64,000 nucleotides of DNA from Pteria penguin (Eukaryota; Mollusca; Bivalvia; Pterioida; Pteriidae): the NCBI GenBank assembly GCA_035048485.1, contig CM068586.1:52318167-52382166 (forward strand), read 5' to 3'. Below, piece by piece: positions 19,618 to 34,608 of the stretch (positions are counted from its first letter, which is position 1; the number at the start of each line of letters is the position of its first letter). The translations under genes and the position numbers were made by a program. The notes beneath the pieces are model-generated. The model searched no databases, was not told the DNA's origin, and was given only the letters and a program-made list of their open reading frames with translations.

Positions 19618-19665
19618 GAACGAGGTTAGGGGCCGGGTGAAATTCAACCCATGATGCATTGCATA
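19618..19665 (+). repeat. Left terminal inverted repeat of the MULE
   Basis: Starts GAACGAGGTTAGGGGCCGGG. 45 of 48 bases match the complement of the right end; similarity fades inward. Presumably contains or borders the promoter for the transposase gene, since its ATG lies about 55 bases further in. Confidence 0.9.
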
Positions 19666-19718
19666 AATACATAAAACGATGGATCCAGAACGGTTTAATT
19701 TTCCGGAAAATGTCAAAA

Positions 19719-19754
19719 ATGGCGCTCTCTTGTTCCTTGAAAATGTTTTTAATC
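19719..19754 (+). CDS. Transposase gene, inferred exon 1
   Basis: ATG followed by [12 protein letters not shown] and the strong donor ATC|GTAAGT, phase 0, fitting the next exon. A short exon recognised only by its position near the terminal repeat and by splice phase. Confidence 0.45.
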
Positions 19755-32900: not shown

Positions 32901-34454
32901 AATATTTTATAATAAAATCTCTTACCAGGCAGAATTTCAAAACCTTTTCTCTCTGCTCCATGCCTTAGGATGTAAGACAAACATCTTGACAAGTCCTAAA
33001 ATTATCCAAACAAATTCTGTTTATAAAGTTGTATGAGACAATAAAATTTCAGTATGTCAAAAGATCTCATTTTGTAGGTATACACATTAACAACTAATAT
33101 TTTGTCCAGTACACATTATAACACGTAGATATTAAGCAGACCACTTATTCCAAGAGATCAACAGTTCTGTAGGTACTGTAAAATGGATTTTAATATGAAT
33201 ATACAATTTTTTAACTTTCCTGTCCATTACATAATGATTTTATACTACAATTTAACACTTTTTTTGACTTACTGCTACAAATTACTACACTACCTGCAAA
33301 CAACATGTAATTTTTTATAAATCTTTTTTTGAAAAAATATCATAGATAACTTAATAATCCTATCAATATCTATTGTCCTGTCATTGACAGTACACTTTTT
33401 TTAAGTCTCAACATGGCATAGACTCTAGTATAAGCTTAATTATTTTAAGATTTTTGTTCATCTTATTTTCACTTGGAATTCCATTCAAGTCTCACAATAT
33501 TCATTTTTTATATGTAATTTAAAACACATTTACATTTATTTCTTCATTAAGAAGTATGGATTATGATGTCATTATGATAAATATGTATAGCTCCTTGTAA
33601 TGGCTCAGCAAATTCTAAATACAACTTATTGGGTACAGTCTGTCTTGACAGACACTGAAATTATCCATGATATACATGCAGTTAAATTTCATTTCTGTAC
33701 TTTAGATCACTATGCAAGCACTATGTTGCTGATTATGTAATATGATACATGTATTACACCCAGATATCTATTACTACTTTATTATTGCTAATTAAAAGCT
33801 CAGATTATCCAGTATAGCATGTAGATTCATACTTCACACTTCATATTTATTTCTTTTTAGCTGAATATTCTGTTACATCGATAATACCAACATGTTGGTT
33901 TAAGTTATTGTCAATACACAAATATCAGGTATAATTCTGGCCAGGAGACATTTTTATAAAGAATTCTCTCACATGTGGGAGGAGAAAACAGGATTTTTTT
34001 ATATTTATATACAATTTCTTATACTTCATATTTATATATCGCGTGCCTCTGCCTCAAATTCACTTTTATCCTAAAAAATGTTATTGGTTTATCGCAAAGT
34101 ATCAGCAAATGAAGTAGATATATAAAGTTTAACATGCTTTCTGATCCAGAAAATTTTAATAACCTAATGATAATATTTCATCTTTCATTCGCTTTAAAAT
34201 TTTAACCTCAAACAAGCCCGCGCCACGGCCAAGTCAAGTGCCTCAAATTCCCTGTTAAGCTCATACTTGTTACTGGTTTACATTAAGAATTATTAGCAAA
34301 TAAAGTAGATATATATATATAGATCTACTGTACATATAGTTTAACATGCTTTAAGTTGCATAAATATTTCAATTCCTATGATAAAATATCACATTTCATC
34401 TTTCATTTAAGAATTAACACTAGATCTAGTAACGTTTTCAAACTTTACCGCCAT
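26386..34454 (-). CDS. TRPT1 (tRNA 2'-phosphotransferase) fused to SGNH hydrolase, nine exons
   Basis: Minus-strand exons: 34,454-34,449 (inferred MA), 32,995-32,926, 31,366-31,200, 30,319-30,221, 29,871-29,802, 29,591-29,535, 28,686-28,576, 27,516-27,415 and 26,939-26,386. They total 1,236 bases, exactly 411 codons plus stop, with matching phases at every junction. The first part is a Tpt1/KptA NAD+-dependent RNA 2'-phosphotransferase: LSYILRHGAERKG, KIRANQGHSI, PVVLHGT, RNHIHFAPGE, GVISGMRSTCE, with the essential Arg-His, Arg and Arg residues all present. After a 34-residue linker comes an SGNH esterase-like domain (aa ~228-410): GHSFV (Ser238), IFLQIGGND and DLVH. TRPT1 is normally a single-domain protein of about 200-250 aa. 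This fusion lies wholly inside the transposon with introns intact, implying capture as genomic DNA. Confidence 0.85.
27415..27516 (-). CDS. TRPT1-SGNH exon 8: linker
   Basis: Reads (S)IPLELDSAKSKHPLTSDLK then DECMSDSTSRLKNS. Acceptor CATTCAG, donor A|GTAAGA, phase 1 both sides. Low-complexity, probably flexible. Confidence 0.7.
27833..28135. repeat. Repeat block with inverted ends inside the MULE
   Basis: Three ~33-base repeats around TCACAATACCCTGCAG (27,845-27,925, one containing TGACGTCA), followed by GGGGTTACCATGC (28,013) and its complement GCATGGTAACCCC (28,116) around GACAGGGTATTGGCGAATACC. Looks like a small inverted-repeat element. Confidence 0.5.
28576..28686 (-). CDS. TRPT1-SGNH exon 7
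   Basis: (D)GIKFYQSTNKVILSPGDENG then CIHPRYFKLAEKLQPE, the C-terminal Tpt1 segment (G-I-x-F-x-x-S-x-N-x-V-I-L-x-P-G). Phase 1 both sides; donor A|GTAAGT. Confidence 0.85.
29060..29227 (-). mobile_element. Truncated family-1 SINE
   Basis: Only the half nearest the tRNA-like head is present (from GCAGTGAGGGATC to CCATGCCGGC), inserted in a TRPT1-SGNH intron. Confidence 0.75.
29535..29591 (-). CDS. TRPT1-SGNH exon 6
   Basis: (G)MRSTCEIIITINAEKAMT. Contains the conserved G-M-R-S-x-C-E with the essential Arg. TATTTTAG acceptor, CAG|GTAAGT donor. Confidence 0.88.
29802..29871 (-). CDS. TRPT1-SGNH exon 5
   Basis: GLKRMERNHIHFAPGESGDG VIS: the NAD+-binding N-H-I-H-F-A motif. Phase 0 in, phase 1 out (G|GTCAGT). 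Confidence 0.9.
30221..30319 (-). CDS. TRPT1-SGNH exon 4
   Basis: VEGLDLKEITDLRDIPVVLH then GTFLNCWESIKEE; the P-V-V-x-H-G-T motif of Tpt1. Phase 0 both sides; donor GAA|GTAAGT. Confidence 0.9.
31200..31366 (-). CDS. TRPT1-SGNH exon 3
   Basis: (G)GFLYVDDLLKMNELQEFSEA...NDKQRFALE...RLKIRANQGHSIN. The N-D-K-Q-R-F and I-R-A-N-Q-G-H-S motifs are diagnostic for Tpt1. Donor AAT|GTATGA. Confidence 0.92.
31430..32135 (+). mobile_element. 5'-truncated LINE, ORF2 C-terminus and 3' tail
   Basis: A + strand open frame from about 31,450 reads YLVANITLGFLKRNLN, SLVRPSLEYACSVWDPYF, NKLDMIQRRGARYVTGRH and ends at 31,996-31,998: the region after the RT core in Jockey/CR1-like LINEs. It ends with a (GTAGAA)n-type tail at 32,110-32,130. 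Inserted in the TRPT1-SGNH intron between exons 2 and 3, so it post-dates the captured gene. A GGCCCAAGTGGGCC palindrome precedes it. Confidence 0.75.
32926..32995 (-). CDS. TRPT1-SGNH exon 2
   Basis: DLSRCLSYILRHGAERKGFE ILP: the L-S-x-x-L-S-Y-x-L-R-H-G-A start of the Tpt1 domain with the essential Arg-His pair. Phase 0 in, phase 1 out (G|GTAAGA). Confidence 0.9.
34449..34454 (-). CDS. TRPT1-SGNH inferred start exon
   Basis: ATG-GCG followed by donor GTAAAG, 154 bases from the right transposon end, phase 0 as required by exon 2. Mirrors the ATGGCG start at the left end. Inferred only from position and phase. Confidence 0.4.
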
Positions 34455-34560
34455 GATATCTTCTTGAAATGAAGGAATAGGCGCATGCGTATTTTGCTAT
34501 TTTCCATTCTACTCGGAAAAATACAAAACGGTTTCGATTCTAAAATTAATTTTCTGTATA

Positions 34561-34608
34561 TGTGCAATGCATTATGGGATGAATTTCACCCGGCCCCTAA
34601 CCTCGTTC
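34561..34608 (-). repeat. Right terminal inverted repeat of the MULE
   Basis: Complement begins GAACGAGGTTAGGGGCCGGG; pairs with 19,618-19,665. Confidence 0.9.

Follow-up and report, generated by a model that had tools for sequence, protein, structure and literature searches.

In maize MuDR, two convergent genes start at the two terminal repeats, and MULE second genes such as mudrB can act as helpers of movement. Target-site duplications of MULEs are about 8-11 bp long, mostly 9 bp. Among eukaryotic cut-and-paste transposons, few second genes are known, and most of these have no assigned role. The VANDAL MULEs of Arabidopsis carry anti-silencing genes, VANC, whose products bind DNA (PMC5735166, PMC10398659), and the table of PMC6446971 lists an OTU-bearing MULE of Cnidaria, MuDR-6_HM, where OTU stands for "Ovarian Tumour Gene". 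In Pack-MULEs and animal Pack-TIRs, host gene sequence is copied into a transposon and multiplied; a survey of 100 animal reference genomes detected no Pack-MULE and describes Drosophila Ssk-FB4, from fly populations, as a coding Pack-MULE that is potentially functional (PMC8277862). According to a title cited in PMC7599744, a platyfish Helitron has captured an SGNH hydrolase gene.

The window analysed here, a stretch of 64,000 nucleotides from Pteria penguin, holds an element described in the initial annotation as a complete Mutator-like transposon with two convergent genes (Table 1). Both the inverted ends matching at 45/48 positions and the exact 9-bp duplication were reproduced. Indeed, 19618-19676 and the reverse complement of 34550-34608 are identical at 45/48 and 54/59 positions, and the two 9-bp flanks are identical to each other. 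The proposed genome search with the ends returned 27 occurrences of the 29-base terminal sequence (≤3 mismatches) in the 838 Mb genome and 0 for the reversed control, so a chance pair of repeats was rejected. Exact 9-bp duplications, all different, flank 9 of the 10 copies for which both ends were found, the window included; the remaining two-ended copy, at C7:39.61 Mb, has no 9-bp duplication. Since these terminal sequences recur and nearly all two-ended copies carry different duplications, the element is mobile, and the window copy is a member of a MULE (Mutator-superfamily) transposon family. The superfamily assignment thus stands, on the MULE transposase domain, the many copies and the duplications; terminal inverted repeats with 9-bp duplications also appear for several MULE groups in the table of PMC6446971.

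Two inward-pointing multi-exon genes were also found as described, with their ATGs 92 (19710) and 154 (34454) bases inside the left and right ends, respectively; the exons of both were predicted from sequence, not from RNA, with a single frame in each gene and AG/GT borders in gene 1. The term "MuDR-like" holds for this layout only, that is, for convergent genes starting near the terminal repeats. Unlike in maize MuDR, gene 2 of the window joins the copy of a host enzyme to a predicted domain of esterase type.

Table 1. Features of the element and its flanks in the window (exons are predictions)
Feature	Position	Strand	Remark
Left target-site duplication, 9 bp	19609..19617	.	TGTATTAAC
Left terminal inverted repeat	19618..19676	+	54/59 matches to right repeat
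Gene 1 exon 1 with ATG	19710..19754	+	GT border, frame runs on into exons 2-5
Gene 1 exon 2	20743..20826	+	AG/GT borders, one frame
Gene 1 exon 3	21023..21100	+	AG/GT borders, one frame
Gene 1 exon 4	21824..21871	+	AG/GT borders, one frame
Gene 1 main exon	23067..25091	+	OTU domain, weak C2H2 match, MULE transposase domain
Deletion junction	25072..25074	.	Transposase C-terminus removed; six other copies 2.3-3.0 kb longer here
Gene 2 exon 9	26386..26939	-	SGNH/GDSL hydrolase domain and stop
Gene 2 exon 8	27415..27516	-	Linker, 102 nt, also derived from host TRPT1 gene
Gene 2 exon 7	28576..28686	-	TRPT1
Gene 2 exon 6	29535..29591	-	TRPT1
Gene 2 exon 5	29802..29871	-	TRPT1, R121
Gene 2 exon 4	30221..30319	-	TRPT1, HGT motif
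Gene 2 exon 3	31200..31366	-	TRPT1, KIRANQGHS motif (R73)
Nested repeat	31384..32130	+	204-residue frame, (TAGAAG)n-like tail; in gene 2 intron, antisense to gene 2
Gene 2 exon 2	32926..32995	-	TRPT1, LRHGA motif (R13, H14)
Gene 2 exon 1, ATGGCG	34449..34454	-	Start lying in element sequence; present in 10/15 copies compared, window included
Right terminal inverted repeat	34550..34608	-	54/59 matches to left repeat
Right target-site duplication, 9 bp	34609..34617	.	TGTATTAAC

Gene 1 encodes a transposase of the MULE superfamily that also carries an OTU protease domain; Pfam matches support both assignments. Its RNase H-like transposase domain (PF10551) was detected with an E-value of 7.8e-14 in the window copy and 4.7e-13 in copy c8. 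In Foldseek, the predicted fold matches that of OTUD1 (E 2.9e-12) and that of the ISCth4 transposase (E 9.8e-7); oyster relatives share 44-70% identity. The combination of MULE transposase and OTU domain is that of MuDR-6_HM. The Pteria penguin family differs by its length of 15-17 kb and by its TRPT1-SGNH second gene; the rows consulted in the table of PMC6446971 give no gene of this kind.

The element cannot be called complete, as first annotated, because about 3 kb are deleted at ~25073, and with them the C-terminal third of the transposase. The extra sequence at this junction measures ~3.0 kb in c13, c11a, c9a, c8 and c11b and ~2.3 kb in c9b. The window transposase is cut at residue ~669 of 1057 and lacks E742, a nearly invariant residue that is probably the third catalytic acid; an intact 1057-residue OTU-MULE frame is present at four other loci (C8, C9, C11 and C13). 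The window copy is therefore without the intact transposase of an autonomous MULE and would now move only when another copy supplies the enzyme. In a search with the c8 transposase and 20 relatives as queries, we relied on the matches of the c8 transposase, except for a likely downstream exon at c8 7591-7719, which is placed by those of the relatives.

The second gene had been read as a TRPT1-SGNH fusion, and gene prediction bore this out, with 9 exons in a single frame of 411 codons. SGNH hydrolases carry Ser, Gly, Asn and His in four blocks, and these residues are intact in gene 2 (S238 in GHS, G in GVGG, N297 in GGND and D387/H390 in DLVH). The SGNH part matches PF13472 (E 4e-13) and, in Foldseek, a GDSL-like lipase (E 2.7e-8), and its model (pLDDT 87.3) resembles GDSL esterases. 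The TRPT1 part matches the TRPT1 structures 7yw3 (E 2.5e-46) and 7yw2. The Tpt1 hallmark, an Arg-His-Arg-Arg tetrad with an HGT motif (PMC6333775), is likewise intact (R13, H14, R73, R121, and HGT at 101-103). Among the best 120 of 1416 homologues, no protein with both TRPT1 and SGNH domains was found, the strongest being double-TRPT1 proteins. No TRPT1-SGNH cargo in a transposon was found in the literature searched; the platyfish Helitron is similar in that an SGNH gene was moved by a DNA transposon, but it belongs to another transposon class and the title does not name TRPT1 (PMC7599744). A search with the SGNH part alone matched 2 proteins; closer ones (P0011 and P0057) are among the matches listed for the first search.

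Comparison with the host TRPT1 gene of the same genome (C8:56.567-56.579 Mb) indicated the origin of the TRPT1 part. Exons 2-8 of gene 2 align in order, together with their introns, to the host gene; for exons 2-7 the intron positions are identical and the introns alignable, and the 191 comparable codons differ at a dN of 0.073. Gene 2 differs from its host counterpart in that its exon 2 is six residues shorter at the start, its own start lies in element sequence and its end is SGNH. The sequence upstream of the captured part is common to the element copies c3b, C5 and C6 and absent from the host locus, where the SGNH exon was not found either. Since exons and introns are colinear with the host gene, the alignment identifies the TRPT1 part as a captured genomic segment of host TRPT1, introns included, and the direction of capture would be from host to transposon. 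A retrocopy was rejected, as the introns are present and homologous to those of the host. Like Pack-MULEs and Pack-TIRs, including Ssk-FB4 (PMC8277862), the family thus carries host gene sequence whose parental copy lies elsewhere. Here, however, the captured domain is whole with its introns, predicted splicing makes it part of a fusion, and it appears constrained; moreover, Pack-MULEs have no transposase in the element, whereas c8 has an intact transposase frame next to gene 2.

Of the 14 other copies retrieved, 9 yielded TRPT1 exons, as did further older loci, and c9b, c7b, c14, c7c and c11c yielded none, so that gene 2 as a neighbour swallowed by the window copy alone was rejected. Over long blocks, the young copies share mostly 98-99.5% identity, and the window is the only one among them with all 9 gene 2 exons in frame. 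In c8, gene 2 lacks only exon 8; since this exon counts 102 nt, the frame survives its absence there and in c11a. The SGNH frame is broken in c11b and c13, the latter also lacking exons 1-2, and several gene 2 exons are missing in c11a, c9a, c7a, c3a, c2 and c9b. Because most young copies have missing exons or broken frames, gene 2 is not generally intact. Copy c9b, with an intact transposase, almost no gene 2 and a target-site duplication, represents copies that either moved without gene 2 or lost it later. Among older copies, c3b, L056 and L057 show mostly 82-90% nucleotide identity and the C6 and C5 copies mostly less; in two older copies, TRPT1 exons are followed by SGNH in the same order.

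Gene 2 and host TRPT1 differ by a dS of 0.548 and a dN of 0.073, giving a dN/dS of 0.133 (95% 0.077-0.223; 191 codons), a ratio that also includes the time spent on the host branch and the time preceding the capture. When Pinctada TRPT1 serves as outgroup, 12 changes map to gene 2 and 6 to the host gene, and 10 are not placeable. The window lineage kept the host TRPT1 residue more often than each of the five older copies (11:3, 2:1, 9:0, 16:7 and 10:4), and the outgroup SGNH residue more often than two older copies (16:3 and 17:3; 15:3 and 15:3 with a second outgroup). The SGNH dN/dS values against two older, damaged copies, 0.60 and 0.91, are what would be expected if the damaged side drifts and give no proof of constraint. 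Between the window and c11b, c8 and c13, we counted 5, 2 and 2 replacement and 1, 0 and 2 silent changes, respectively; these near-identical copies are too young, with too few changes, for dN/dS, and the few present are not skewed to silent ones. The low dN/dS against the host gene, the intact active-site residues of both domains and the more frequent retention of ancestral residues suggest that gene 2 is likely a functional accessory gene. Collectively, we lean towards a MULE family whose second gene consists of host TRPT1 exons 2-8 with their introns, predicted to be spliced to an SGNH exon, and encodes a likely selected accessory protein that would help the transposon.

Gene 2 could instead be a transduplicate of the Pack-MULE kind that travels passively and has no role, with its frame still open only because the copies arose in a recent burst. 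The high similarity of the young copies without excess of silent changes, the loss of parts of gene 2 in most of them and the frequent capture of gene fragments by plant MULEs (PMC8277862) would all fit such a passenger. Nevertheless, we regard it as unlikely, though not negligible, given the constraint relative to the host gene, the preferential retention of host residues and the older copies, which make the family older than the burst, yet the window frame is open across 9 exons. It is very improbable that gene 2 was domesticated, with selection acting on its use by the host: its frame is intact and constrained, as domestication would predict, but the host owns a separate TRPT1 gene and the least damaged copies (window and c8) sit in two-ended elements with target-site duplications. 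A direct role in transposition, with the TRPT1 domain modifying 5'-phosphate ends in the DNA of the excised element or of the target, or with the fusion serving as a partner of the transposase, appears improbable as well. In its favour, mudrB offers a precedent for a helper of movement, an action of TRPT1 on DNA ends is suggested by the title of PMC8385414, and human TRPT1 acts on phosphorylated RNA ends (PMC6582358). On the other hand, the other OTU-MULE-like transposase loci of this genome, most of them 36-40% alike, have no TRPT1 or SGNH match within 20 kb among the matches listed, except C5:32.66 Mb, around which terminal repeats were looked for and none established; this type of transposase therefore does not need gene 2 in general.

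For the favoured accessory protein, both genes would be transcribed from the terminal repeats and the gene 2 protein would be made. In the least certain steps, the TRPT1 domain could modify RNA ends that carry phosphates, either by capping 5'-monophosphate ends with ADP-ribose in an NAD-dependent reaction or by removing 2'-phosphates, in line with the RNA activity of TRPT1 (PMC9458441, PMC6582358). This might protect the transcripts of the transposon against 5' decay or prevent their fragments from entering small-RNA silencing, perhaps piRNA, while the SGNH part may de-esterify a substrate or bind RNA. Such an anti-silencing role is a guess from enzymology; it would be similar to that of VANC, likewise a further gene of MULE-type elements, with the difference that VANC binds DNA and TRPT1 modifies RNA ends (PMC5735166, PMC10398659). 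A more specific counter-defence seems doubtful. In it, the stolen enzyme would add ADP-ribose caps to piRNA precursors and cleaved transposon transcripts at their 5'-monophosphate ends, sparing them both decay and loading into PIWI proteins, and the OTU domain would strip ubiquitin from silencing or transposition machinery. If the RNA of the transposon is indeed protected by gene 2, this gene would be the animal equivalent of the plant anti-silencing genes and would give a use to metazoan TRPT1, whose knock-out in mouse has no phenotype (PMC6333775). Since one genome holds the parent gene with introns, intact transposase copies and older damaged copies, capture, fusion and selection are datable and directly testable.

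The repeat nested in the gene 2 intron gave no significant match in a Pfam search; by eye, it looks like the 3' end of a LINE, and related frames are present in c8, c9a, c11a and c13.

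The element of the window carries inverted ends identical at 45/48 positions, exact 9-bp flanks (TGTATTAAC on both sides) and two genes whose frames point inwards, all as first described in the initial annotation; over a longer stretch, the ends are identical at 54/59 positions. Its 29-base terminal sequence occurs 27 times in the genome with at most three mismatches, against none for the reversed control. Fourteen further end-bearing loci were retrieved for comparison with the window copy. Both ends are correctly ordered in nine of them, giving ten two-ended copies with the window. 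Nine of these ten are bounded by exact 9-bp duplications, every one different, and only the copy at C7:39.61 Mb has none; the copy at C13:39.21 Mb was not counted because its right end is reversed, and c3b, c14, c7c and c11c have a single kind of end within the retrieved stretch. Since copies with both ends and different exact duplications are present, which the annotation had named as proof of mobility, the element has moved. Just upstream of it lies a reading frame resembling, by eye, what we take to be an exon of an SLC23-type nucleobase transporter. The element begins about 90 bases past a likely splice donor, thus the insertion is probably intronic.

Gene 1, the OTU-MULE transposase, has its ATG 92 bases in from the left end and runs in a single frame through four short exons and a long one, the latter coding for OTU protease (E 7.9e-12) and MULE (E 7.8e-14) domains. 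In the window, the long-exon frame ends after 674 residues and its identity to the full frame stops at residue ~669. At this point, ~3.0 kb of extra DNA is found in the copies c13, c11a, c9a, c8 and c11b, and ~2.3 kb in c9b. An open 1057-residue frame is present at C8, C9:14.16, C11:25.88 and C13, while that of c11b is interrupted by a stop and that of c9a is internally deleted. Hence, the window copy is indeed a MULE with convergent genes but not the complete one initially proposed, its transposase being cut at ~669/1057. The missing part contains E742, nearly invariant in 20 relatives and presumably the third catalytic acid, and a Cys/His-rich stretch that looks SWIM-finger-like by eye, with no SWIM match in the Pfam scan. 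Wherever one of the 20 relatives carries a species name, it is that of an oyster (Saccostrea, Ostrea, Crassostrea). As predicted, the structure of the full transposase (mean pLDDT 66.6; OTU part mostly 72-90, catalytic part 79-94) resembles OTUD1 and ISCth4, the latter an IS256-family transposase.

Gene 2 encodes 411 residues in nine predicted exons with AG/GT borders. Residues 3-201 resemble human-type TRPT1 structures (E 2.5e-46), and R13, H14, R73 and R121 are the counterparts of the Clostridium Tpt1 tetrad, given as Arg18-His19-Arg68-Arg121 in a passage of PMC6333775. Pfam assigns the last exon to the SGNH hydrolases (E 4e-13), so the suggested TRPT1-SGNH fusion holds for the predicted gene. 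The predicted SGNH model (pLDDT 87.3) has a GDSL-like lipase as its best natural match (2.7e-8), ranking below a designed scaffold (2.1e-8); an OSK domain match was weak (E 0.008), under the curated cut-off and non-significant. All nine exons are in frame only in the window copy. The fullest two-gene copy seen is c8, where the transposase is intact and gene 2 misses just exon 8, whose loss keeps the frame; in the remaining young copies, gene 2 exons are missing or the SGNH frame is broken, as in c13. Nested in a gene 2 intron is what looks like the 3' end of a LINE, followed by a repeat tail, and related frames in c8, c9a, c11a and c13 indicate that it predates their spread.

A genome search with the TRPT1 part located the host TRPT1, a multi-exon gene near a contig end, whose nearest protein among 125 compared is Pinctada imbricata TRPT1 (70%); gene 2 is 61-63% alike to gastropod TRPT1s. 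Together with the oyster names among the transposase relatives, the Pinctada match makes the host a likely bivalve with pearl oysters as kin. Exons 2-7 of gene 2 and the host exons have identical borders, the intron blocks are collinear at about 74-80% (86% for the exon-3 block), and part of exon 8 with the following intron aligns at 79% further along the host locus. Alignment between host locus and element is lost upstream of the captured part, where the element sequence is shared with the copies c3b, C5 and C6. In the host TRPT1 stretch read, nothing matches the SGNH exon, nor is any SGNH there among the matches listed. Shared borders, alignable introns, element-only upstream sequence and absence of SGNH argue, at the level of sequence, that the element took up a copy of ~12.7 kb of host DNA spanning exons 2-8 and itself supplied the new start and a separate exon for SGNH. 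At some positions gene 2 differs from the host but agrees with an older copy (seven residues with c3b, six with L056, three with L057, six with C6, eight with C5), which is compatible with a single capture.

Gene 2 and the host TRPT1 differ over 191 codons by a dS of 0.548 and a dN of 0.073 (ratio 0.133, bootstrap 95% 0.077-0.223). Because this path includes host time, Pinctada TRPT1 was chosen as outgroup; it placed 12 changes on gene 2 and six on the host, with ten unplaced, suggesting that the constraint on gene 2 is slightly looser than that on the host but far from free drift. The host residue was kept by the window lineage more often than by the older copies, at 11:3 relative to c3b, 2:1 to L056, 9:0 to L057, 16:7 to C6 and 10:4 to C5; damage is visible in c3b, L056 and L057. 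For SGNH, two outgroup proteins were used, and the outgroup residue was kept in the window versus L056 and L057 at 16:3 and 17:3 with one, 15:3 and 15:3 with the other. We therefore lean towards a MULE family with a captured host TRPT1 fused to SGNH and retained by selection as an accessory protein. Against selection count the young copies, where differences are too few for a test and replacement changes are not below silent ones, and the SGNH dN/dS of 0.60 to L056 and 0.91 to L057. That gene 2 is instead a passive transduplicate without a role seems rather unlikely, though the small number of young copies with gene 2 in frame counts in favour of it.

If gene 2 is such an accessory protein, the fusion would, by analogy with human TRPT1, act on RNA ends to the benefit of the transposon. 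The human enzyme ADP-ribosylates 5'-monophosphate RNA, the caps being untranslated and blocking XRN1, according to passages of PMC9458441 and PMC6582358. Since RNA capped in this way is not translated, the fusion would more probably act on RNA fragments than simply shield mRNA. The genes by which plant VANDAL MULEs counter silencing, as outlined in parts of PMC5735166 and PMC10398659, offer a functional parallel. A title- and abstract-level search of mostly non-subscription papers found no description of a TRPT1-SGNH cargo of this kind, in agreement with the initial annotation; passages of a bivalve survey with curated MULEs mention no cargo (PMC10294476). As far as the relevant passages go, a cnidarian OTU-bearing MULE (PMC6446971) and the coding Pack-MULE Ssk-FB4 of Drosophila (PMC8277862) are already in print, and a platyfish Helitron carrying an SGNH gene is cited in PMC7599744. 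Taken together, the element reads as a MULE in which a host RNA-end enzyme was captured, fused and apparently kept.

Coordinates of the window and of related features in the genome
Feature	Location	Remark
Window	C7:52318167-52382166	own genome, 838 Mb
Upstream reading frame	window 19253-19546	
LINE-like fragment	window 31384-32130	
Host TRPT1	C8:56566858-56577669	
Element copy	C13:39208320-39224646	transposase intact, right end reversed
OTU-MULE frame	C5:32661692-32664373	36% alike
Older TRPT1 copy	C5:32670288-32671679	
SGNH-type family	C10:321-338 kb and many loci	large; dispersed equal-score copies
Tpt1/KptA-like stretch	L054 1263-1802	PTS_2-RNA, E 8e-24
Tpt1/KptA-like stretch	L052 265-858	PTS_2-RNA, E 1e-29

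Other OTU-MULE-like transposase loci, most of them 36-40% alike, have no TRPT1 or SGNH match within 20 kb among the matches listed, with one exception. The OTU-MULE frame on C5 lies ~6 kb from the older TRPT1 copy, which is convergent with it and free of the six-residue deletion of gene 2; no terminal ends were found at C5:32661692-32671679, and the pair may either represent an early stage of the two-gene element or be due to chance. The genome search for SGNH gave at least 151 matches, with 150 of 264 candidates scored. Among the matches listed, all those of at least 76% identity are in copies of the element family, while the C10 cluster (47-75% over shorter stretches) and the large distant SGNH family lie outside element copies, as far as seen. 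Furthermore, about 34 single-frame Tpt1/KptA-like stretches are ~27-39% alike to gene 2 (e.g. C5 ~41-60 Mb), and identical scores were obtained for five such loci (on C1, C2, C4 and C11), a pattern expected of dispersed repeats; they possibly constitute a second, independent mobile Tpt1 family. Two TRPT1 domains are present in six of ten scanned homologues (P0001, P0002, P0003, P0004, P0006, P0016), including proteins named Hondaea, Saccoglossus, Glomus and Ptychodera.
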